A DNA stretch of 64,000 nt from NCBI GenBank assembly GCA_964035545.1, contig OZ037772.1, positions 4,625,733-4,689,732 of the forward strand. The letters run 5' to 3'. The translations under genes and the position numbers were made by a program. The notes under the pieces were generated by a model, which saw nothing but the letters and a program-made list of their open reading frames with translations, did no database searches and was not told the DNA's origin. The DNA is from Bugula neritina. Lineage: Eukaryota > Bryozoa > Gymnolaemata > Cheilostomatida > Bugulidae. Of the stretch, positions 14,706 through 61,783 are shown piece by piece; within the stretch, counting starts at the first letter, position 1; the number at the start of each line of letters is the position of its first letter.

Positions 14706-15097
14706 TGTGATAGTTTTGTGGATTGTGAATGAAACTAGTGCTGTTACATGCTTGTATGAGAAACAAGGCGAGAAATAAGGTAGAATGTAGATAATCTTTA
14801 TTGTAGTATAGTCCGAGTGAATCAATGGTCTTTATCCAGCGAGCTCCAGTAGTAGACTGAACTATACTGGAACTCGCTGGCTTTTATATACATGCAGGAC
14901 AAAGACATTCCTTTGTTTGCCGAGATCGGAGACCCGAAATACCGAATATCGGCATTTCGGGGATCCGAAATGCCGAATCCGGCATTTCGGTACTTCGGTA
15001 TTCCGATATGCCGAGAATCGGCATATCGGTGTTTCGGAGGACCGAAGTACCGATCTCGGCAACAAAGGACACACACACACAACATAAATTTACCACA
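14706..15097 (-). repeat. 3' LTR of the inner gypsy element (392 bp)
   Basis: Starts TGTGATAG and ends TTTACCACA. It contains a dense palindromic block at 14919-15060 whose outer arms are GCCGAGATCGG and CCGATCTCGGC, filled with alternating CCGAAAT and ATTTCGG words. Confidence 0.92.
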
Positions 15098-15398
15098 CAC
15101 ACCCCCCATCGGAAAGCATGCTTTCCGATAAAGAGGCGTACACAACACAAACACACAACAGGGAATGACACGACAATAAAACACACAGTTGAAAGTAACA
15201 CACGAAAAAAAATATGGTAAACATGCAGTGATAGTAATAATACAATGATAACACAAAAAAAACAGGGAAGATTTGTGCACACACAAGAAAAACAGAGCAT
15301 GAATAGGTACATACATTACATGAAGCACTTACACACATATAATAAACAAACAAAGAATAAGAGTAGAAAAGAAAAGAAAAAAAACTATACAAATAGTC

Positions 15399-18300
15399 TC
15401 AGCGGCGGTCGCCAGATCGACCCCGCTCCAGGCGGCTAACTCGTCTCCGGAGTTGCCCCAGCTCCTCTTCATATCTGCGGAGCTGCCGGCGTAACTGGTG
15501 AACCTCCTCTGCCAACTGAGCTGACGTCTGGTGCCTAGGGCGGTCGGTAGTACCACGGGCAGGACGTCGCTGGCGGTGCGTCTGCTTCTCGCCCGCCGCC
15601 GAGGGTCGGGGGCCCAGGTCCGATGAATCGGCCCTGGCACCTGGTCCGACCCGTGCCAGCATGACCCGAAGTGGCTGGGTGGCTGCCGGTTGGGGTGTCG
15701 CGGGCTCCCCTTCTTCCTCCCGAACAGGCCTACACGCGGGGAATCCCAGGGCGAGAGCAGCCCGTTTGTGGGGATCCGCCACGTGTGGCAGCACCAGGTC
15801 CCGAAATTCGGGAAAGGAGGCCTGGTCTACAGCAAACGTGTAGCCCGTGTGGCAGTGAGCTATGCGCTGATGTCTCAACACATAATCCCTCTGGTAGGAG
15901 AACTCCCAACACGGGCAAAACACGTTGATGTAATGCTGAGGGGCGTGTACGCGCAACCGCCGTGCAGAGGAGAATTTCCTCTTACACTCATGGCAGATGC
16001 GGTTGCCCGGCTCACCGCAAGCATCACCAATTTTTAGGTTGGTGGGTCCAGTCACCCAATACTGGCGGGCGACCAGGGCCCGAGGCAGGGCCAGTATTGG
16101 GGAGGCATCTTCTTCTGTTGGCAGGTGGTCGCCGTGTAGGATGCCCTGCTCCTCCCCGGCCGTGAGCTGAAGCTCGACTGGTTTGGGGTCAGGGCCAACC
16201 ATGGCGGAACACACCTCTGTGGAGGAGGTGGCGGCCTGCTGGCTGGTAGAAGCCGAAGCAAGGCCCGGTGGGGGAGGGGAGTCGGACCGACTGGCCTCCT
16301 CAACGTCCATTCGCTCCTCTAGAATAGATAGTAGAGGCTGTGAGAAGCCGGTCTCACTATCGCCGAAATTCGGCACAGGTGTGAATGGAGATAAGTTAAA
16401 AACCGAGGGCCGAGGTGTATCGCAGAAATTGACTGAGCCTACATCGTGATTCAACAATGTATCAATGGCAGAGTCATCTCCGAGATCCATCTCGGCCTCC
16501 GGTCCTAAGATATCAGAACCAAGTAAATCTAGTAAAGACCAGTCTACTGTAGTTTGATTAGACTCCGCAACTGGAGGATCTAATCTAGAAGAAATACCTG
16601 ATTGTGTATCTGGTAGAGTGATCCCCATAGCCGCTGATAGCGTACGGAGAATAGTGGTAAAATCAAAATGAGTATTAGAATCAGAATTTAGTTTGAGTTG
16701 CAACTGCCGTGCGAGCTGTGTGAAGTCAGAATGAGAAATGGCCGAACCTCGTGCTTCAGAAGTTTTACCTGCTGAAGCCCGAGTCGCGTGGCTCGTGGGA
16801 ATTTCCCCCGGATTTCGAGGAGACAACTCGCGTGATCGAGTGTCTTCCGAAATTCGGTCGGCCATTTCTTCTTCTTGGTGGAATTCTCCGGGGTGATGGA
16901 GGGAATTTCCAACCAAGATGGGGTGGCAGTCAGTGTGGGGGGGGTCTTCCTCAGGAGGGGGCCCCTCCAGGTGTCCTACAGCATAGTCTGCCAGGTACCT
17001 GAGAGGTCTTCTTGGCCGCTGGCTCCTCTCAAGTGGAACAGACTCTGGTGGTGTTGGTGGCTCCTGGTCTACCCTGGTAGGGGGGTCCACGTTTTCACCC
17101 CGTACGGGGGTGGGGGTGTCCTCCCCCGGGAAGGGTTGTGAGCCAAGGGCTTGCTGCTGTTCCTGCTCCCGCTCCGCTCTCTGCTGTCGCTCCAGCTGCT
17201 CTATCAGGGCGGCTTGCTCCTGGTCTGCCTCCCTGGGGACCATGATCTCCACCTCACGGGGCCGGGTGGCCCGTCCACGACGGTTGGGCTGACGGTGGGG
17301 CTCCAAGAGGGGTGGAGCCTGACCCACCGCGTCTGGGCTGGCATGGTAAGGTTTGAGGCGCTGCTCGCTCTGGACAGAGACCTGTCCAGAGCGCTCCACA
17401 CGGTATGTGTGGTTGGGCAGCACCTCTACTACGCAGTAGGGGCCGACGAACTTGGGCTGAAGCTTAGCCGACTGTCCACGCCGCCTACGATAACTCACCA
17501 TCCAGACCCAGTCTCCCACTTGGTACAACGGGGGCTCCTCTGAGTCCTCGGTGCGGGTCTGCCACTGCTGGGTGCGCAGCGCATCATGAGCTTTGCCCAT
17601 GATGTCCATCAGACCCTCCACATATTCGTGTACCGGTGACTCGGGGGCAGGAACATGGTACGTCAGGTGTTCCGGGACCCGCGTCTCCCGGCCTAGCATC
17701 AGGAAGTTTGGGGTCTCCTGCGTGGCGGAGTGTGGTGTGCTGCGGTAAGCCCGCATGATCTGCGGCAGCACCACGTCCCATTCTTCCTGACCTCGACCAA
17801 GCAGCAGGCTCCGGAGCGCGTCACCCAACATCCTGTTGTTCCGCTCGACGACTCCGTTCCCTTGCGGGTGATATGGGGTGGTCCGACTCTGGTTCACCCC
17901 CCATATCCGGCAGAGGTCTCCCATGAGCTGGGACTGGAACTGGGCACCCTGGTCTGTATGTATCTGCTCGGGCAAACCGAGGTAACAGAATACATGTTGG
18001 TCCAGGGTCCGGGCCACCGTGGGGGCGGTGGCGTCTGGAATAGCCAGAGCATCTGCCCACCGGGTAAAGTGGTCCGTGAGCACCAGTATCCAGTTGTTTC
18101 CTCTGGCGGATAACGGCATAGGCCCGACGAGGTCTACCGCCACTACTTGCCACGGTCGACCAACGTACAGCCGGCGTCGACCAGTGGTTTCCGTGGGGCG
18201 GCCATGCTTGCTAGCTTGGCAGACCTCGCATTGCCGTACCCGCAGTCGTACGTCCCGAGTCATTCCGGGCCAATACCAACGCAGCCGCAGACACCTGATG

Positions 18301-20378
18301 ACCCGACTGACTCCAGCATGAGCCTGCTTATGGGTGTCCCAGATCAGTTCCCGCCGGAGGGCGCGTGGACAGACGACGCGGTCCCTCTTCTGCTGGCGGT
18401 TGTCTGCTGCTAACGTTATCATCAGGAGGCCATCAGGACTGACCTTGAGGGCATCCCAGCGACGACAGAGGAGTTGGAACTCAACGTCTCCCTGCCGCTG
18501 CTGTTCCTCGCTAGGTCGTCGGCCCTCCTTCTTGGCCCGGAAGATGTCCGCTACCGCGCCGGGTAGCGTCTCCTGGAGTCGGCACAGCTCCTTGACGTTC
18601 TGGTGCAGAGTAGGGTTGGTGTGGAGCGCCTGGACACCGTCCTGGTGGGTTTCGGTCCGAAGATGGCCATGCTCCCACCGGTAGGCGGTGCCCTCCACTA
18701 GCTCTGTTTCCACGTCAAGGCGAGCGGGTCCCCCGTCCCGCTGTTCAATGTGCAGGCATTGCTTACAGTCCTCTACCGGCCGGCGGCTCATGCCGTCGGC
18801 GTTCCCATGCTTCCGGCCTGCACGGTGCTCTATACGGTAAGAGAACTCGGCAAGAATCTCTAGCCAACGAGCTACCTGGCTCGAGGGCTCTGCACGTTTA
18901 CACAGCCATATCAGTGATGCATGGTCTGTTCGCAAACGGAACGATTTCCCATACAGATATGGCCGAAAGTGCTTGACCGCCTTGACTACTGCTAGGAGTT
19001 CCTTCCTAGTGGTGCAGTAGTTCTTCTCGGCGGCCGCGAGAGTCTTGCTATAGTAAGCCACGACCACCTCACTTCCACCCTGGACTTGAGACAGGACGGC
19101 TCCCACGCTGTGGTCGCTGGCGTCGGTGTCCAGGATGTACTCCTTGGCTGGATCAGGATACGCCAGGATTGGCGCTTCCATTAGCCGTTGCTTGAGGTGG
19201 TCGAATGCCTGCTGCTCCTCCTGTGTCCACTGCCACCGGACTCCCTTGGCGGTCAGCCGATTTAACGGCTGAGCCACTCCTGCGAAACCAGGTATGTACT
19301 GCCGGTAGTACCCTACGAGGCCCAGGAATGCACGCAACTCAGGGAGGTCGCGGGGAACAGTCCACTCCTTCACAGCTTGTACCTTCTCTGGATCGGTAGC
19401 GACCCCATCACGGCCAACCACATGGCCCAGGTATGTGACTTCTGGCTGCAGGAGTGCGCACTTGGAGGGCTTCAGCTTCAGTCCGGCTGCCCGGAGACGG
19501 TCAAAGACCTCCCGCAGACGACTGACTTGAGTCGAAAAGTCTGGGGAGATGACAATGACATCGTCCAGATAGATGAGGAGGGTCTTCCAGTGTAACCCAC
19601 TGAGGACTTGCTTCATGAGCCGTTGGAATGTTGCCGGAGCGGACGTTAGTCCGAATGGCAGTACTTTCCACTTCCAGAGCCCGTCGCGAGTAATGAATGC
19701 TGCTTTGTCCTGGGCATCAGGACTGAGGGGCACTTGCCAGTACCCGCTAAGCAGATCCAAAGTACTGAAGTACTTGCTACCCGCGAGGGCATCTAGAGAC
19801 TCATCTATCCGTGGGAGAGGGTAGGCGTCCTGGATGGTGGCGTTGTTGAGTCTGCGGTAGTCTACGCAGAATCTCCAGCTACCATCCTTCTTCTTGACCA
19901 GGACCACTGGGGAGCTCCACGCACCGTGGGCAGGCTCAATCAGATCCCGGTCCAGAAGATCCTGTACCTGTCGGCTCACCTCCTTCTCCTTCTCCGGGCC
20001 CAGACATCGGGTAGGCTGCCTGATGGGAGTGGTGTCGGCTGCCAGGGGTATCTCGTGAGAGATAACCTTAGTCAGCCCCATGTCTCTATCGCCACGACTA
20101 AAGACATCACTGTACTCCGCGAGTAGTTGAGCCAGTACTTGGCGTTCAGTACTACTCGTACAGTTTCCGCATGCTCCGCCATACAGGTCAGCCAGATGCT
20201 CCGGGACTGCTTCTTGTCTGGTGTGAGGGGGTTTCCCTGGTTGTCGGCCACTGTCTCCAGTGCCGGACCCACATCCGCTTCCTGGATGGAGTGGTACTTC
20301 CCCACCAGCGCTCCAGCCGATAGTTGGACAGGTTCCGGGAAGGGGTTGATGCACTGCACGAGGAGCTCTTGCCGACAA
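15399..20378 (-). CDS. pol: Pol (RT, RNase H, integrase) with a ~500-residue zinc-finger/coiled-coil C-terminal extension
   Basis: 1,659 codons, probably entered by -1 frameshift from the protease frame rather than at the first Met; family-like sequence starts at about residue 55. RT occupies 110-310 with the catalytic Asp in [11 protein letters not shown] and in YLDDV (270-273). RNase H is around 410-530 (DTDAS, RTDHASL). Integrase has the HHCC zinc-binding part (about 683-720, CEVC) and the core Asp749, Asp809 and Glu845 (D-x35-E), then a GPY-type module (about 975-1010). A usual pol would end near 1130 (RPLRYLADYAVG). Here the frame continues: an acidic Ser/Pro-rich region, then C-x2-C-x12-H-x3-H (1462-1482), a second Cys/His cluster FCPC...RHQRIAH (1488-1508), and a C-terminal Arg/Glu heptad-rich helix (about 1615-1655). 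The extension occupies the place where retroviruses carry env, but no signal peptide or membrane segment is visible. Confidence 0.9.
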   Translation of the reverse strand: MSARAPRAVHQPLPGTCPTIGWSAGGEVPLHPGSGCGSGTGDSGRQPGKPPHTRQEAVPEHLADLYGGACGNCTSSTERQVLAQLLAEYSDVFSRGDRDMGLTKVISHEIPLAADTTPIRQPTRCLGPEKEKEVSRQVQDLLDRDLIEPAHGAWSSPVVLVKKKDGSWRFCVDYRRLNNATIQDAYPLPRIDESLDALAGSKYFSTLDLLSGYWQVPLSPDAQDKAAFITRDGLWKWKVLPFGLTSAPATFQRLMKQVLSGLHWKTLLIYLDDVIVISPDFSTQVSRLREVFDRLRAAGLKLKPSKCALLQPEVTYLGHVVGRDGVATDPEKVQAVKEWTVPRDLPELRAFLGLVGYYRQYIPGFAGVAQPLNRLTAKGVRWQWTQEEQQAFDHLKQRLMEAPILAYPDPAKEYILDTDASDHSVGAVLSQVQGGSEVVVAYYSKTLAAAEKNYCTTRKELLAVVKAVKHFRPYLYGKSFRLRTDHASLIWLCKRAEPSSQVARWLEILAEFSYRIEHRAGRKHGNADGMSRRPVEDCKQCLHIEQRDGGPARLDVETELVEGTAYRWEHGHLRTETHQDGVQALHTNPTLHQNVKELCRLQETLPGAVADIFRAKKEGRRPSEEQQRQGDVEFQLLCRRWDALKVSPDGLLMITLAADNRQQKRDRVVCPRALRRELIWDTHKQAHAGVSRVIRCLRLRWYWPGMTRDVRLRVRQCEVCQASKHGRPTETTGRRRLYVGRPWQVVAVDLVGPMPLSARGNNWILVLTDHFTRWADALAIPDATAPTVARTLDQHVFCYLGLPEQIHTDQGAQFQSQLMGDLCRIWGVNQSRTTPYHPQGNGVVERNNRMLGDALRSLLLGRGQEEWDVVLPQIMRAYRSTPHSATQETPNFLMLGRETRVPEHLTYHVPAPESPVHEYVEGLMDIMGKAHDALRTQQWQTRTEDSEEPPLYQVGDWVWMVSYRRRRGQSAKLQPKFVGPYCVVEVLPNHTYRVERSGQVSVQSEQRLKPYHASPDAVGQAPPLLEPHRQPNRRGRATRPREVEIMVPREADQEQAALIEQLERQQRAEREQEQQQALGSQPFPGEDTPTPVRGENVDPPTRVDQEPPTPPESVPLERSQRPRRPLRYLADYAVGHLEGPPPEEDPPHTDCHPILVGNSLHHPGEFHQEEEMADRISEDTRSRELSPRNPGEIPTSHATRASAGKTSEARGSAISHSDFTQLARQLQLKLNSDSNTHFDFTTILRTLSAAMGITLPDTQSGISSRLDPPVAESNQTTVDWSLLDLLGSDILGPEAEMDLGDDSAIDTLLNHDVGSVNFCDTPRPSVFNLSPFTPVPNFGDSETGFSQPLLSILEERMDVEEASRSDSPPPPGLASASTSQQAATSSTEVCSAMVGPDPKPVELQLTAGEEQGILHGDHLPTEEDASPILALPRALVARQYWVTGPTNLKIGDACGEPGNRICHECKRKFSSARRLRVHAPQHYINVFCPCWEFSYQRDYVLRHQRIAHCHTGYTFAVDQASFPEFRDLVLPHVADPHKRAALALGFPACRPVREEEGEPATPQPAATQPLRVMLARVGPGARADSSDLGPRPSAAGEKQTHRQRRPARGTTDRPRHQTSAQLAEEVHQLRRQLRRYEEELGQLRRRVSRLERGRSGDRR

Positions 20379-21358
20379 TCTAGCCGATTCAGGCTGTTTG
20401 CTAGTCGGATGGCTCCGTGCGTTCCTTCAACCATCCCCAGGCCGGCGATCCCCTTGCAGTTGACTCTACATCGGAGAGTCGCCTGGGACCTCCCCGGAAC
20501 TGTGCAGTCCCGTACTACCTGGACTCCGCCCACCAAGGGCCTGCCAAACTTGTCAACACAGACAAGTTCCTTCCCAGCCATCACCACCACTGACTTCTGG
20601 AAATCCATGTGGCACTGGTGTTTCTCCAGGAAGGGCATTCCCAAGATGGCGTCCTCCTTCAGCTGGCTGACGATAAACGTCTCGTGAACTGCTTGATCAC
20701 GGACGCGTCCAGGTAGTGAAATGACGCCGTAGAAAGGAATGCATGATCCGTCCGCCAACGTACCATGCGCACCTTCATACGGCTCGAGGCTCGCCCGCTC
20801 TCGTGCACCAAGGGTGTCAAAGAGACGCCTACTCAGCAGGTTGGTAGTGCACCCAGTATCCAGTAGGAATGTGGCAGCTTTACCCGAAATCTTTCCGGGC
20901 AGGAAGTAGCTGCTTCCATACGGCTGGGTGCTCCTGGAGCGGTCAGTCTCTGGGGGAGACACGACTTGGGTCCGCACAGCGGGCCTCCTCTTCGTCTTAG
21001 AGACAACGGGGGTTTTCTGAGGTCGGGAGGGTAGCTTGGGATACTCTTGCGAGTAAGCTGAATCCTCCTCCACAACCTCCTCGGGCAACCCCGCGAACCG
21101 GTTACGGAGTGGCCAGGCTGGAGGATCGGGTAGACCTTGCGGCCTCTGAGATCTCCGAGGTGCCTGCCATCCGGTTTCTTCTAGTTCCATCCGGGTATCG
21201 AGTGGCAGGGCAGGAGGATCGGGTAGGCCTTTCGGTCTCCGAGATCTCCGGTTTGCGTGCCACTCGATATAGGTCGACTCTGGAGAGGTCTCTTCTACTG
21301 TCTTCCGAGTCCTATCCCGGACCGGATTGGCATGGGGCCCACGGGTGGCGGAATTCAC
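20072..21358 (-). CDS. Protease-containing ORF of the inner gypsy element (gag-pol link)
   Basis: This frame is -1 relative to gag and overlaps its end; it is open upstream through the slippery site at 21373-21379, so it is most likely read as a Gag-Pro fusion. After a basic N-terminal part with an internal duplication (RRSRRPKGLPDPPALPL at about 37-53, RRSQRPQGLPDPPAWPL at about 68-84), the aspartic protease motif LLDTGCTTNLL is at about 165-175, with DAILGMPFLE further on as the second conserved strand. After about residue 345 the frame carries no pol-like sequence; the match to pol continues in the frame of the next ORF, again a -1 step. Confidence 0.85.
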   Translation of the reverse strand: MNSATRGPHANPVRDRTRKTVEETSPESTYIEWHANRRSRRPKGLPDPPALPLDTRMELEETGWQAPRRSQRPQGLPDPPAWPLRNRFAGLPEEVVEEDSAYSQEYPKLPSRPQKTPVVSKTKRRPAVRTQVVSPPETDRSRSTQPYGSSYFLPGKISGKAATFLLDTGCTTNLLSRRLFDTLGARERASLEPYEGAHGTLADGSCIPFYGVISLPGRVRDQAVHETFIVSQLKEDAILGMPFLEKHQCHMDFQKSVVVMAGKELVCVDKFGRPLVGGVQVVRDCTVPGRSQATLRCRVNCKGIAGLGMVEGTHGAIRLANSLNRLDCRQELLVQCINPFPEPVQLSAGALVGKYHSIQEADVGPALETVADNQGNPLTPDKKQSRSIWLTCMAEHAETVRVVLNAKYWLNYSRSTVMSLVVAIETWG

Positions 21359-22254
21359 CGTGAGCCTCGGGTGTTTAAAGGCTTCTGTCCCTTAGGGCAG
21401 TGCCTTCTCACATGTCCTGGCATCCCGCACTCCCAGCAAGTGGGCATAGGGGGGCGGACAGGGTCGTCCCGCGAGCGGGGAGCCCGCCTGTCCGTCTGGT
21501 TGCGCTGCAACTCCGTCACTGTAGCCTGCAGGCCTTTCATCATGCTCATCAGCATGTTGAGCTGCGTCTGCTCAGGTGACGGGGTAGCTGCTGCTGCCAC
21601 TTGTGGGGTTGGGGGTATCTCTTCTGCATCTCCGGCCACCTGGCGAGCTGCGTAGTTCGCCCTCCGTGGCTCTTCCACCTGGAAGTAGGCCTTCCCCATC
21701 TCTAGTGCTTTGTCTAGGCTCTTGACTTTTGCGGCTAGCCAGTACCGCTGGAGGTCCGGGTGGTTCACACTCCGGAAGAACGCGTTAAAAACGAGGCGCT
21801 TCCGATCGTCGCCAGTGGCGTGACCGAAAGCAGCCTGAGCCAGGCGCTCTACCTCGTTAGCGTGATCTTCCAGAGATGTCCGTCGGTCTCTCCTCATCAC
21901 TTGTAGCTGGTCTGACGCCTCTTCCGTGGTCAACCCGAACCGGGCCCTAAGAGCCCGCAGGATGTGGGCTTCGTCGGGTCCCAGTGCGAAGTTCCTGGCC
22001 CGGCCTGTCAGACAGGCCCGGAGTTGGAGGACGCGCACCCGTACTGGCCATTCAGCGGTGGCGGCCACGTCCTCGAACTCCTTGATGAACTGTTCCACGT
22101 CTCCATCTCCTCCGAAAGTCGGGGGCTGGAGGCGATACCTGTCACCAGGTGCTGCCTGTCCTTGCCCCCGCAATCCCTGGAGGGCTGTGACCAGCGCCTC
22201 AATAGTGAGGGCTGGTGGTGCTGCTGCCTCAGGGGCTGGGTCCCCTGGGGCCAT
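21355..22254 (-). CDS. gag: Gag of the inner gypsy element, 299 aa
   Basis: True ATG at 22252-22254 (MAPGDPAPEA), a short distance downstream of the primer site. Residues 40-210 have capsid-like character (GDVEQFIKEFEDVA, WPVRVRVLQLRACLTGRARNF, LHANEVERLAQAAF-like segment DHANEVERLAQAAFG). One CCHC knuckle, CWECGMPGHVRRHC, is at 273-286, followed by 13 residues and the TGA. Expected to assemble the capsid and bind the RNA genome. The stop overlaps the protease frame. Confidence 0.88.
   Translation of the reverse strand: MAPGDPAPEAAAPPALTIEALVTALQGLRGQGQAAPGDRYRLQPPTFGGDGDVEQFIKEFEDVAATAEWPVRVRVLQLRACLTGRARNFALGPDEAHILRALRARFGLTTEEASDQLQVMRRDRRTSLEDHANEVERLAQAAFGHATGDDRKRLVFNAFFRSVNHPDLQRYWLAAKVKSLDKALEMGKAYFQVEEPRRANYAARQVAGDAEEIPPTPQVAAAATPSPEQTQLNMLMSMMKGLQATVTELQRNQTDRRAPRSRDDPVRPPMPTCWECGMPGHVRRHCPKGQKPLNTRGSR
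21373..21379 (-). promoter_or_regulatory. Candidate -1 ribosomal frameshift site TTTAAAC between gag and protease
   Basis: On the minus strand the end of gag reads CCT TTA AAC, containing the classic X XXY YYZ heptamer T TTA AAC in the correct phase, 15 bases before the gag stop. The next ORF lies in the -1 frame and is open across the site. A downstream stem or pseudoknot was not worked out. Confidence 0.7.
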
Positions 22255-22284
22255 CCTATTTCTCTTAGCAACTAGCTATTCGTA

Positions 22285-22304
22285 GAATCCCACTGCTGCC
22301 ACCA
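22285..22304 (-). promoter_or_regulatory. Primer-binding site of the inner element (tRNA-Leu type)
   Basis: Plus-strand GAATCCCACTGCTGCCACCA looks like the 3' end of a tRNA-Leu including CCA. It lies one base inside the 5' LTR (22306-22697). Confidence 0.8.
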
Positions 22305-22305
22305 A

Positions 22306-22697
22306 TGTGATAGTTTTGTGGATTGTGAATGAAACTAGTGCTGTTACATGCTTGTATGAGAAACAAGGCGAGAAATAAGGTAGAATGTAGATAATCTTTA
22401 TTGTAGTATAGTCCGAGTGAATCAATGGTCTTTATCCAGCGAGCTCCAGTAGTAGACTGAACTATACTGGAACTCGCTGGCTTTTATATACATGCAGGAC
22501 AAAGACATTCCTTTGTTTGCCGAGATCGGAGACCCGAAATACCGAATATCGGCATTTCGGGGATCCGAAATGCCGAATCCGGCATTTCGGTACTTCGGTA
22601 TTCCGATATGCCGAGAATCGGCATATCGGTATTTCGGAGGACCGAAGTACCGATCTCGGCAACAAAGGACACACACACACAACATAAATTTACCACA
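22306..22697 (-). repeat. 5' LTR of the inner gypsy element (392 bp)
   Basis: Pairs with 14706-15097, with one substitution (22631). On the minus strand it should carry the element's promoter. Confidence 0.92.
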
Positions 22698-31365: not shown

Positions 31366-31373
31366 ATACATAT

Positions 31374-31630
<257 letters not shown>

Positions 31631-31860
31631 GAGATATTGAGATATTACGCTCTCATTTAATGCTCAGCAATGACATTAAATGATTGAGCACTTTCACCAT
31701 GGTCACAAACTCAAGCTGCTAGCATTTTGCAATGCTCGTGACTCCTAGGTGACCCCTAGAGTCACTCGAGCACTCTGGCTTGAGTTTACACACCTTTTAA
31801 ATATGCTTTAGTAAAACTATAAGTTTTACTATTGCGAAGGTGTGGGCCATGGTACTCTGT

Positions 31861-31907
31861 TCTGTGCTGATGAGGGGACAGATCCCGAAACAGCTGCTGT
31901 CCACAGA
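31861..31907 (+). ncRNA. Hammerhead ribozyme 1 (type I)
   Basis: Stem I strand TCTGTG (31861-31866), core CTGATGA (31867-31873), stem II GGGG/TCCC with loop ACAGA, core GAA (31887-31889), stem III ACAG/CTGT with loop CTG, cleavage after C31901 (GTC), and stem I partner CACAGA (31902-31907). All core bases of the consensus are present and stem I pairs over six bases. Confidence 0.93.
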
Positions 31908-32131
31908 TTGAGATATTACGCTCTCATTTAATGCTCAGCAATGACATTAAATGATTGAGCACTCTCACCATGGTCACAAACTTAAGCTGCTAGCATTTTG
32001 CAATGCTCGTGACTCCTAGGTGACCCCTAGAGTCACTCGAGCACTCTGGCTTGAGTTTACACACCTTTTAAATATGCTTTAGTAAAACTATAAGTTTTAC
32101 TATTGCGAAGGTGTGGGCCATGGTACTCTGT

Positions 32132-32178
32132 TCTGTGCTGATGAGGGGACAGATCCCGAAACAGCTGCTGTCCACAGA
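32132..32178 (+). ncRNA. Hammerhead ribozyme 2 (type I)
   Basis: Same as ribozyme 1, displaced by exactly 271 bases; predicted cleavage after C32172. Confidence 0.93.
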
Positions 32179-32402
32179 TTGAGATATTACGCTCTCATTT
32201 AATGCTCAGCAATGACATTAAATGATTGAGCACTCTCACCATGGTCACAAACTCCAGCTGCTAGCATTTTGCAATGCTCGTGACTCCTAGGTGACCCCTA
32301 GAGTCACTCGAGCACTCTGGCTTGAGTTTACACACCTTTCAAATATGCTTTAGTAAAACTATAAGTTTTACTATTGCGAAGGTGCGGCCCATGGTACTCT
32401 GT

Positions 32403-32449
32403 TCTGTGCTGATGAGGGGACAAATCCCGAAACAGCTGCTGTCCACAGA
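32403..32449 (+). ncRNA. Hammerhead ribozyme 3 (type I)
   Basis: Displaced by a further 271 bases; the stem II loop has ACAAA instead of ACAGA. The catalytic core and the stems are unchanged. Predicted cleavage after C32443. Confidence 0.92.
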
Positions 32450-32455
32450 TTGAGA

Positions 32456-32469
32456 TATAAATATATATA

Positions 32470-32504
<35 letters not shown>

Positions 32505-33243: not shown

Positions 33244-39878
<6,635 letters not shown>

Positions 39879-59519: not shown

Positions 59520-61714
59520 AGTAAATAAATAAATAAATATACACCGCACAGCTTCAGATGATATAAAGCAGAGTCGGTGTAAAGTGCTTATAATCAGTTA
59601 GGCAAAGCAGCTAGAATCATTAGAAAAGTTTATGGATGCGATGTTTATATGAATGTTTGGCAGTTTTGGTATTGATATTGCCCTTAATAGCACCATGTCT
59701 GGTATTGTGTGACTCTGCAAAATGAAGGGAGAACCGGTCTTGGTCTATAGCGGCACTACCAGAAAGCATACGAAAGTACATTTTTTGGTTTGCATTGTTA
59801 CGTCTTTGTGCAAGGCTATCCCAATTAGAATTTGTCATGAGCTCAGTTATATGATCTGGTTTTCTCTTACAGAATGTCCACCTGAAGGCTTTTCTATTTA
59901 TACCTTCTATGATGTTGATGTTTTCTAATTTAAATGGAGACCAGGTGTGGGTCGCAAATTCTAGTATAGGGCGACATACTGTTTTATAAGCTATGGCTCT
60001 GGTTTTACTTTTAGCCTTTTTTAGACAGCGCATCAGCATGTGTAATAATTTATTAGCTTTTGAGCAAATGTTTATTATATGTTGATCGAATGACAGTTTA
60101 TTATCAATCGTGACACCAGGGTATAATATTTTGTCAACACATTGTAAGGGGTCATTATTCATGCTGTATTGAGACACTAGAGGATTTACAGTGGAGCGTT
60201 GAATTGTCATATGCTCACATTTATTTATATTGAACTTTATCTGAGAACTGTCTGCTCAAGTTATAAGATGGTATAAGTCATTCTGAAATAAACTAGAATC
60301 AGCAGGTGTTGTGATTGGTTTGTACAATAAGAAATCATTTGCATATAGTTTAAGCTTGCTGTTGGCTACCGCAGAGTGCATGTCATTTATGTACACATTA
60401 AATAACAATGGTCCTAATACACTGCCTTGGGGCACTCCTGAAGTCACATGTCTAGTGGCCGATTTGACGTTGTTGAAACAGACTGAAAGTAGACGGCTCT
60501 GAAGCCATGAAAAAATCCACTTTTATCAGCTATTCCAATATTTAGCAGTTTAACCTGTAGTTCATGGTGCGACACAACGTCAAAGGCCTTTGAAAAATCC
60601 AAGACAGCGAGGTCAACCGGTATCATTTTGTCGAAAAAATCTATAAATTCACTCACGGTATTCAGCAACTGAGTATCGCAGCCATGATTTGTCCTGAAGC
60701 CATGTTGGTGTGGATAAAACTGGTCATTTGATTCTAGGAAACAGTTGATATTATGTGATACGATATGCTCGAAGATTTTGGATATGATAGAAGTGAGTGA
60801 TATTGGCCTGTAATTCAGCGGGTCTGTACGACTTCCTTTCTTGAAGATCAGTACAATGTTTGCTGTTTTCCTGTCTTGTGGTGTCTGAGATGTATCTTAA
60901 AAGTACTGAAAAACCTTTGTCAGGGGCTCATATATATAATGTGCAATATATTTTAGAAGTGCAGGAGAAAGTTCCTCTGGGCCAGCACCTTTTCGTGGAT
61001 CGAGTTTGGTGAGCTGTGTTAGGACTCCCCGAGGATCAAATTGTATAGGGGATGATATAGTTTGAGGTGGAATGCAGGGAGGGATACTACCATCATCAAT
61101 AGAAAACACAGAAGCAAAGGAGTCCGCAAAAGATTCAGCTATAGCAGTATTGTTGTTAGGGGGGATGTTGTCTAGTTGACGTACAGTATTTGAGCTGCCC
61201 TTTTTACTTGCTATGAACCAATAAAGAGGTTTTGAATCACCCTGCTCTAATGTATTGCATATGTGTTTGTTTATATAATTATTATAGTCCCTGTTACACA
61301 ATTTCTTGCAGTACCGGGACTGGGTGGCATGTTTTAAAATGTTGTGCGGGGTGCGATCGTTAAGGCAAGCTAGGTGAAGGTGTTTTCTTTTTCTGATCTC
61401 ACTTTTAGTTTCTTGGGATATCCAGAGTTCTGATTTTTTCTTTCTAAATTTGTATGGGATATTGGAATGTGCTACCTGAAGTATTCCAGATTTGAGATTA
61501 TGCCATAACTGTTCAGCGCTACATTTCTTAGAGATACCTGAGGTGATTTTACAATGTAGGGAGTAACAGTCGACGGTGATGTTCGTTATGCCTGCCTTTT
61601 CAAATTGCCAATATGGTTTTAGTTTGGTTAAGGATGCTGTCCTTTTAATGACATTATCCGCCAACACATTGAAATTGATAATAAAATGGTCAGAGCAGGA
61701 TGACTCAACTCGGG
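59520..61714 (-). pseudogene. 5'-truncated, inactivated Jockey/CR1-type LINE
   Basis: On the minus strand, the end of an endonuclease-like domain (CSDHFIINFN) is followed by an RT: NYRPISLTS and HGFRTNHG (60700-60850), LDFSKAFDVVSHHEL, GVPQGSVLGPLLFNVYINDM and a C-terminal part (59620-60210, with VTIDNKLSFDQHI and CRPILEFATHTW). Lesions: TAA at 60897-60899, a frameshift near 60510, TGA at 60256-60258, and the catalytic YADD is YAND (about 60345). The 3' tail on this strand is TATTTATTTATTTATTTAC at 59520-59540. It is a dead copy. Confidence 0.85.
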
Positions 61715-61719
61715 GGTTA

Positions 61720-61783
61720 GTGGGAAACGTCTAAGTGGAAAGTTTAGCCTATCGTCTAACTGGGAAGCGTCTATCTGGGATGA
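61720..61783. repeat. Right arm of the distant inverted repeat
   Basis: Ends ...GAAGCGTCTATCTGGGATGA; pairs with 58806-58888. The LINE begins immediately beside it. Confidence 0.7.

Follow-up and report, generated by a model that had tools for sequence, protein, structure and literature searches.

A hammerhead retrozyme-like element at (TA)n tracts of Bugula neritina and its candidate Penelope-like partner

Introduction

Metazoan non-LTR retrozymes, as described in PMC7229834, carry a type I hammerhead once per tandem unit of 170-400 nt, have a GC content below 50%, lack both an LTR and a protein, give strongly self-paired RNA, lie dispersed in the genome as dimers to multimers, and share that genome with Penelope-like elements (PLEs). 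The Bugula neritina locus described here resembles them in each of these respects and, judged from its sequence, the kind of element is already known: a metazoan non-LTR retrozyme (PMC7229834). In the same account, PLEs are only a strong candidate for the mobiliser of animal retrozymes. Another description finds no conserved motif in retrozymes that would betray an autonomous mover, and for the animal retrozymes it points to PLEs as likely candidates (PMC7761336), and a 2024 review, where it deals with mobilisation, leaves LINEs or PLEs open (PMC11722881). Animal PLEs are described as having inverted ends, one of which may bear a tail, and as preferring simple AT-rich targets (PMC3846280). As reported for a lizard PLE in vitro, reverse transcription started internally, cutting was AT-rich and both strands were extended; the enzyme used unprocessed RNA, its own hammerhead being dispensable (PMC11167929). 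We consider it probable that our locus is an animal non-LTR retrozyme copied from a ring into (TA)n by PLE machinery, in a three-lap event.

Results

Three head-to-tail units in a TA-rich setting

The window, by which we mean the whole 64-kb stretch of DNA analysed, holds three head-to-tail units of 271 bp, as the preliminary description had claimed. TRF reported a repeat at 31636-32458 with a period of 271, 3.0 copies, 98% matches and 0% indels, and we take this plus-strand interval, 3.03 laps of the unit in length (row L001 of our insertion table), as the retrozyme insertion. By sequence and BLAST, unit 1 (31636-31901) starts at unit position 6, which is the 5′ end of the insertion, and a short extra TTGAGATA stands directly ahead of it; units 2 (31902-32172) and 3 (32173-32443), on the same strand, are complete cleavage-to-cleavage monomers. 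The three hammerheads, also on the plus strand, were found where they had been reported, at 31855-31912 (structure string and descriptor), 32126-32183 (descriptor) and 32397-32454, with C17, after which cleavage is predicted, at 31901, 32172 and 32443. The spacing of these sites agrees with the proposed cutting of the array RNA into 271-nt monomers; only two complete monomers would be expected, not three, because unit 1 starts at position 6 and no hammerhead lies upstream of it.

The (TA)n setting was likewise recovered by TRF, with a (TA)n-rich tract at 31366-31629 on the 5′ side and an (AT)n tract at 32455-32502 on the 3′ side, neither assigned to a strand. The 3′ tract takes in the last letters of the element, ATAT: the four plus-strand nucleotides at 32455-32458, unit positions 12-15, are the common 3′ end of the family and, as AUAU, the putative start of reverse transcription. 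The (TA)n around the array is likely the integration target, and the 5′ tract is probably what remains of it. The element appears to encode no protein, as had been supposed, the longest stop-free stretch being 49 codons in the unit of either subfamily (A1 and A2, below). The TRIM gene said to lie beside the array could not be confirmed, since none of three nearby frames tested had a Pfam match.

Elsewhere in the window, a gypsy-type LTR element at 14926-22661 has a 1675-aa open frame between matching tandem-repeat blocks (14926-15061 and 22526-22661, 7600 bp apart; TRF). On the minus strand, 2496-28114 carries several C2H2 zinc-finger frames (one checked against Pfam), interleaved with another recurring frame type, and 59620-61730 carries broken LINE-like frames, with RVT_1 in 60444-60893. 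At 36678-37078, TRF found short tandem repeats of TAAAAATGGCACAGA, with an inverted form about 200 bp on.

The hammerhead motif

Judged from sequence and pairing, the type I hammerhead core is complete and its three helices are present. Each unit has stem I TCTGTG/CACAGA, then CTGATGA, stem II GGGG/TCCC, GAA, and stem III ACAG-CTG-CTGT; in hammerhead 1, stem I comprises an outer CTC/GAG and the inner TCTGTG/CACAGA. Stem I is interrupted by a UGU/UU internal loop, and loop II reads ACARA (ACAAA, not ACAGA, in hammerhead 3).

The preliminary description had named a missing covariance-model hit as grounds for rejecting the ribozyme, and no significant hit was found: searching the window against Rfam gave no match at the gathering score, and the best hammerhead model, RAGATH-1, scored 15.2 bits against a cut-off of 56.3. 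Hammerhead_1 (RF00163) gave none in the whole genome among the 73 of 15744 candidates scored, with control genomes silent too and the reach of the model thus unproven. We do not regard this result as decisive against the hammerhead, since independent evidence comes from the core, from the tandem period and from the 582 sites in the genome described below. With Rfam scores below threshold throughout, we set Rfam aside as proof of a ribozyme and therefore used a descriptor with resampled controls. The strict type I descriptor (CTGANGA, stem II of at least 3 bp, GAAA, stem III of at least 3 bp with A15.1-U16.1, and stem I of at least 4 bp) matched exactly the three array sites on the plus strand of the 64-kb window and nothing on the minus strand. 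One match in total arose in 100 first-order Markov resamplings of the window (about 0.01 per window). Of the 60 terminal hammerheads tested, 51 still pass this descriptor. Hammerhead patterns found no match in viral and prokaryote collections.

Thermodynamic and comparative measures were less specific to the motif. The hammerhead fold has an energy of -12.7 kcal/mol against a predicted minimum of -15.6, that is, 2.9 above the minimum, and the isolated motif folds no better than its shuffles (z -0.22 to 0.14). Covariation inside the hammerhead was rejected as support: no pair shows a two-sided change among the aligned copies, and the share of paired cells, 98.8%, is the same as in shuffles, slid structures reaching only 26-56%. 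The substitutions between units, earlier read as a sign of retained function, are uninformative, because only 7 positions vary (over unit positions 6-271), one of them in the hammerhead, in loop II. Substitutions away from the majority, computed on 44 of the 45 aligned copies (L057 left out), are about equally dense inside and outside the hammerhead, both in subfamily A1 (12/1533 vs 39/5497) and in A2 (6/1060 vs 29/3814).

A dispersed family in the host genome

Searching the host genome (215.8 Mb in 295 contigs) for further copies, as had been suggested, showed that the unit belongs to a dispersed family whose members range from partial to multi-unit. The 3′ part of the hammerhead is matched with at most 3 mismatches at 582 places (291 forward, 291 reverse; arrays counted once per unit), against 0 for the control, and BLAST with the whole unit gave at least 71 matches from the 40 of 633 candidates scored. 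There are two subfamilies, A1 of 271 nt, to which the window array belongs, and A2 of 272 nt, with GC contents of 43.2% and 45.6%. They are 94% identical (window unit 2 vs a unit of L069), and their majority sequences differ at 13 alignment columns, one of which is in the hammerhead; an older copy, L057, matches at 76%. There is no sign of an LTR, since units abut directly and flanks are mostly TA, and simple Pol III box patterns had no match in the A1 consensus. The RNA of the unit pairs strongly with itself (z -7.69), to 71.6% when folded as a ring. Part of the divergence between units may preserve this predicted structure, because 2 of its 87 pairs change on both sides. The description of the array as metazoan retrozyme-like is thus supported by those of its features that can be tested: a hammerhead per unit, low GC, no protein, self-paired RNA and dispersed arrays.

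One common 3′ end fused to (TA)n

Of 73 terminal ends collected in a table, one was removed for its masked flank and another as an internal junction, so that 71 insertions remained; the A2 loci L071-L073 are absent from this table. The copies have their 3′ end in common: they stop 12-15 nt beyond the cleavage site and run into (TA)n, and this end reads CACAGATTGAG[A/G]TAT and then (AT)n, with small variants. If a 3′ TA run is defined as 10 nt or more of alternating TA no further than 40 nt from the common unit position, it is present in all 42 insertions from the whole-unit BLAST, a search that imposes nothing on the end, and in 27 of the 29 found by patterns; L062 and L065 are exceptions that lack a 3′ TA run of 10. 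The background is 1.2% of 3198 40-bp windows within the 64-kb window. Genome-wide, 19 nt of TA alternation come after an exact GATTGAGR at 297 sites (control 0).

The 5′ ends are scattered across the unit, 10 of the 71 falling at positions 10-16, where a whole number of laps completes. A 5′ TA run of 10 is present in 54 insertions and absent in 17, and in 44 of the 54 cases flanked by TA the first inserted base continues the alternation, a count for which the boundary is ambiguous and no chance level is set. Lengths extend from 0.13 to 5.05 laps, with 34 of 71 above 1.05. At the lower extreme, inserts of 18-23 nt span the cleavage/ligation point (two in L114, and L119, L120, L121, L123 and L126), consisting of the 15 nt after the cleavage site and the 3 to 8 nt before it. 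From these junctions, reverse transcription seems to begin within the unit, at the AUAU, with (TA)n as its target, and to continue through the cleavage site.

Two-strand priming was considered for pairs of retrozymes and rejected in L108-L110, because there the TA sits between divergent copies. The left copy of L109 (200-487, minus strand) has its 3′ end at unit position 27 without TA there, the TA being on its 5′ side. RNA-gene chimeras were sought at the non-TA 5′ flanks of 17 loci, with no Rfam match. At L127 (G000:C3:18792200-18792650), short variants GGGGACAAATC[CT]CGAAACAGCTGCTCTTTACACAGATTGAGATAT occur as three copies, in both orientations, within one TA-rich stretch.

A ring or an uncleaved multimer as template

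Since copies cross the cleavage site, the template would seem to have been circular or uncleaved RNA; a linear monomer ending at that site could not yield the very short copies, which likewise points to a ring or an uncleaved molecule. Full units within one array differ by a median of 1 (22 pairs), whereas loci of the same subfamily differ by a median of 4, or 3 when only array loci are compared. In 6 of the 11 arrays with at least two full units, every full unit carries the same non-consensus variant, the pattern to be expected from repeated copying of one ring. Such variants are not all private to their array, since the variant of L009 recurs in L111 and one of the two in L024 recurs in L028. 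The window array itself is mixed, with G251 in units 1 and 2 and A in unit 3, and at L016 variants are present in only some of the units; a single ring does not predict such mixtures without later conversion or a change of template.

The alternative that survives best is that the template was an uncleaved multimeric transcript of a genomic array, copied by the same PLE with no need of the hammerhead. We regard it as possible and, on balance, doubtful. Uncleaved RNA would also give copies that span the cleavage site, and it would accommodate the mixed units of the window array; lizard PLE, as reported in PMC11167929, took unprocessed RNA in vitro without needing a hammerhead. The variants shared throughout 6 of the 11 arrays sit less well with such a template, as does the passing of the strict descriptor by 51 of 60 terminal hammerheads, and related animal retrozymes are described as accumulating as rings (PMC7229834).

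A resident Penelope-like element with the same target

One locus, L128, contains an open 715-aa frame with a Pfam match to RVT_1 (E 1.4e-10) and no Pfam match to GIY-YIG. The frame has 650 scored homologues; among the 120 listed, PF26215 is present in all, PF00078 in nearly all, and PF01541 is listed for one, P0180. A search for a PLE by way of PF01541 was abandoned, having found only an SLX1-like frame (named by eye). A PLE endonuclease query gave 83 weak places, mostly over the same 34-45 residues, with a best E of 0.015 and 0.044 for L128, so that these weak matches can only hint at a GIY-YIG domain there. The 3′ region contains a hammerhead-like CTGAAGA...GAAATATC string, in which GAAA is AAAA in L128 itself.

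This PLE has two alternative 3′ ends, one short and one with a tail of about 30 nt, both joined to (TA)n. The short end occurs at (TA)n at 129 sites (at most 2 mismatches; control 7) and the tailed end at 166 sites (at most 3 mismatches; control 1). Among the listed ends, 37 of 43 neighbouring pairs within 4 kb face outward, and 34 of those 37 pair a short with a tailed end. We class the L128 type as a PLE with inverted ends and an optional tail at one of them.

Physical links between retrozyme and PLE

Nearness was counted on C1, C2 and the first 20.6 Mb of C3, with 100 retrozyme ends and 61 PLE ends listed. Five of these retrozyme ends have a PLE end no more than 1 kb away; uniform placement gave a mean of 0.11 and a maximum of 2 in 2000 runs. 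Because points were placed uniformly and not within TA tracts, this nearness shows at least a shared target, more than it shows a shared enzyme. At L130 and L131 a retrozyme 3′ end and a PLE 3′ end share one TA tract, and at L017 a PLE end, an apparent end of family B (below) and a retrozyme lie within about 2 kb. At L129 a PLE fragment is fused 5′-to-5′ to a retrozyme, with TA at both outer ends: a short PLE 3′ end at TA, an internal deletion, 7 nt, and the retrozyme ending at TA. This single case, chosen for nearness, has the head-to-head form of a PLE with a retrozyme as one arm, and we treat it as a lead. The flanks examined of the 71 tabulated insertions contain no direct PLE fusion. We infer that the resident PLE would mobilise the retrozyme.

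LINE-like elements were considered as the partner and set aside in the four families examined (two copies each, L097-L104, from a survey in which 150 of 2124 RVT_1 candidates were scored), whose tails are other than (TA)n: they end in (CAAA)n, (GTAATCAGAG)n, AGTA-type or short GACA repeats. Because these ends are short repeats specific to each family, repeat-tailed integration is suggested to be common in this genome.

Another reverse transcriptase, such as that of an unsampled LINE with a (TA)n preference, could have copied the retrozyme, the nearness to PLEs then reflecting nothing but a shared target; we think this distinctly unlikely. The neighbours at L130, L131, L017 and L084 can indeed be read as independent insertions into one TA tract, and the 150 RVT_1 candidates scored are a small part of the 2124. 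The other repeats at the ends of the four LINE-like families do not fit it, and the L129 fusion has the head-to-head form that is common among PLE insertions here.

A second hammerhead family, B (L063 near 1501; L066; L087-L096), is decayed, with a GUA cleavage triplet by eye. It has 13 sites within 3 mismatches, some beside TA tracts and some in inverted pairs (L088, L091). As a coding PLE it was rejected, with no RT-like frame seen by eye in the 16 kb around two copies, or in L063 and L066.

Discussion

The reading that we prefer, copying of the retrozyme from a ring by the resident PLE, can be set out as a series of steps. The element would be a 271-nt non-coding RNA parasite whose transcripts are cut at each hammerhead, and its monomers, by analogy with the known family and from the period, would be closed to rings. 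An endonuclease, presumably that of the PLE, would cut a (TA)n target, and the cut (TA)n would serve as primer for reverse transcription on the AUAU that lies 12-15 nt beyond the cleavage site, a start read from the common 3′ ends. The enzyme would then round the ring for anything from a fraction of a lap to five laps, after which the far end of the cDNA would be joined to the TA tract, possibly by microhomology; the window locus would be a three-lap event. In a wider form, towards which we lean with less assurance, the insertions would be a genomic record of reverse transcription round a ribozyme-made ring, and the resident PLE endonuclease-RT would serve both its own RNA and the retrozyme. 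A single TA break could serve the copying of both, one from each strand, as at L129, and the retrozyme would compete through pairing of its AUAU with the TA primer.

It is improbable, in our judgement, that the element itself added the (TA)n as a tail, through 3′ slippage, and that the (TA)n was not a target already in place. LINE-like elements of this genome do carry simple-repeat tails, and 17 of the 71 insertions lack a 5′ TA run of 10; the 54 that have such a run on the 5′ side too, and the presence of different elements at one TA tract (L130, L131), argue for a target. An ordinary satellite, expanded in tandem by unequal exchange and containing a hammerhead-like string by chance, would suit a small array without a gene but is scarcely credible given how many copies lie dispersed, whether single, partial or several laps long, with a 3′ end in common, and given a chance descriptor match of about 0.01 per window.

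If copying by the PLE from a ring is correct, the mobiliser of animal retrozymes and its start site would be known to the nucleotide. Between them, the 3′ junction, the target and a resident PLE that shares this target and has one copy fused to a retrozyme open the question of the mobiliser to a direct biochemical test in which RNA, target and protein are all defined.

Compared with metazoan retrozymes as described in PMC7229834, the element differs in its 4-bp stem III with a triloop, in its (TA)n target with one common 3′ junction, and in having a co-resident PLE with that same target and one fused copy. With hammerhead PLEs (PMC11167929; PMC3846280) it shares, on their published descriptions, an AT-rich simple target, tandem and partial copies, and an internal start of reverse transcription downstream of the hammerhead; unlike PLEs, it encodes no protein. 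Reverse transcription of the retrozyme would begin 12-15 nt beyond the cut, at a site that matches a TA primer, whereas the start used by the lizard enzyme is reported not to be homologous to the cut DNA (PMC11167929). Plant LTR retrozymes are similar in being hammerhead-bounded non-coding units thought to spread through rings (PMC4918200), and differ, as described, in their type III hammerhead, their length of 600-1000 nt, their LTR and the Gypsy-type helper proposed for them; they are also described as carrying a PBS and a PPT (PMC4918200; PMC7229834). Newt satellite and Schistosoma hammerhead repeats, by their descriptions, likewise place a type I hammerhead in short tandem genomic repeats, and the newt repeats share the weak stem III; the Schistosoma repeat is described as carrying tRNA sequence, unlike the A1 consensus with its lack of a simple Pol III box match. 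Relative to the metazoan retrozymes as PMC7229834 describes them, what goes beyond is the integration signature at nucleotide level and the physical link to a PLE.
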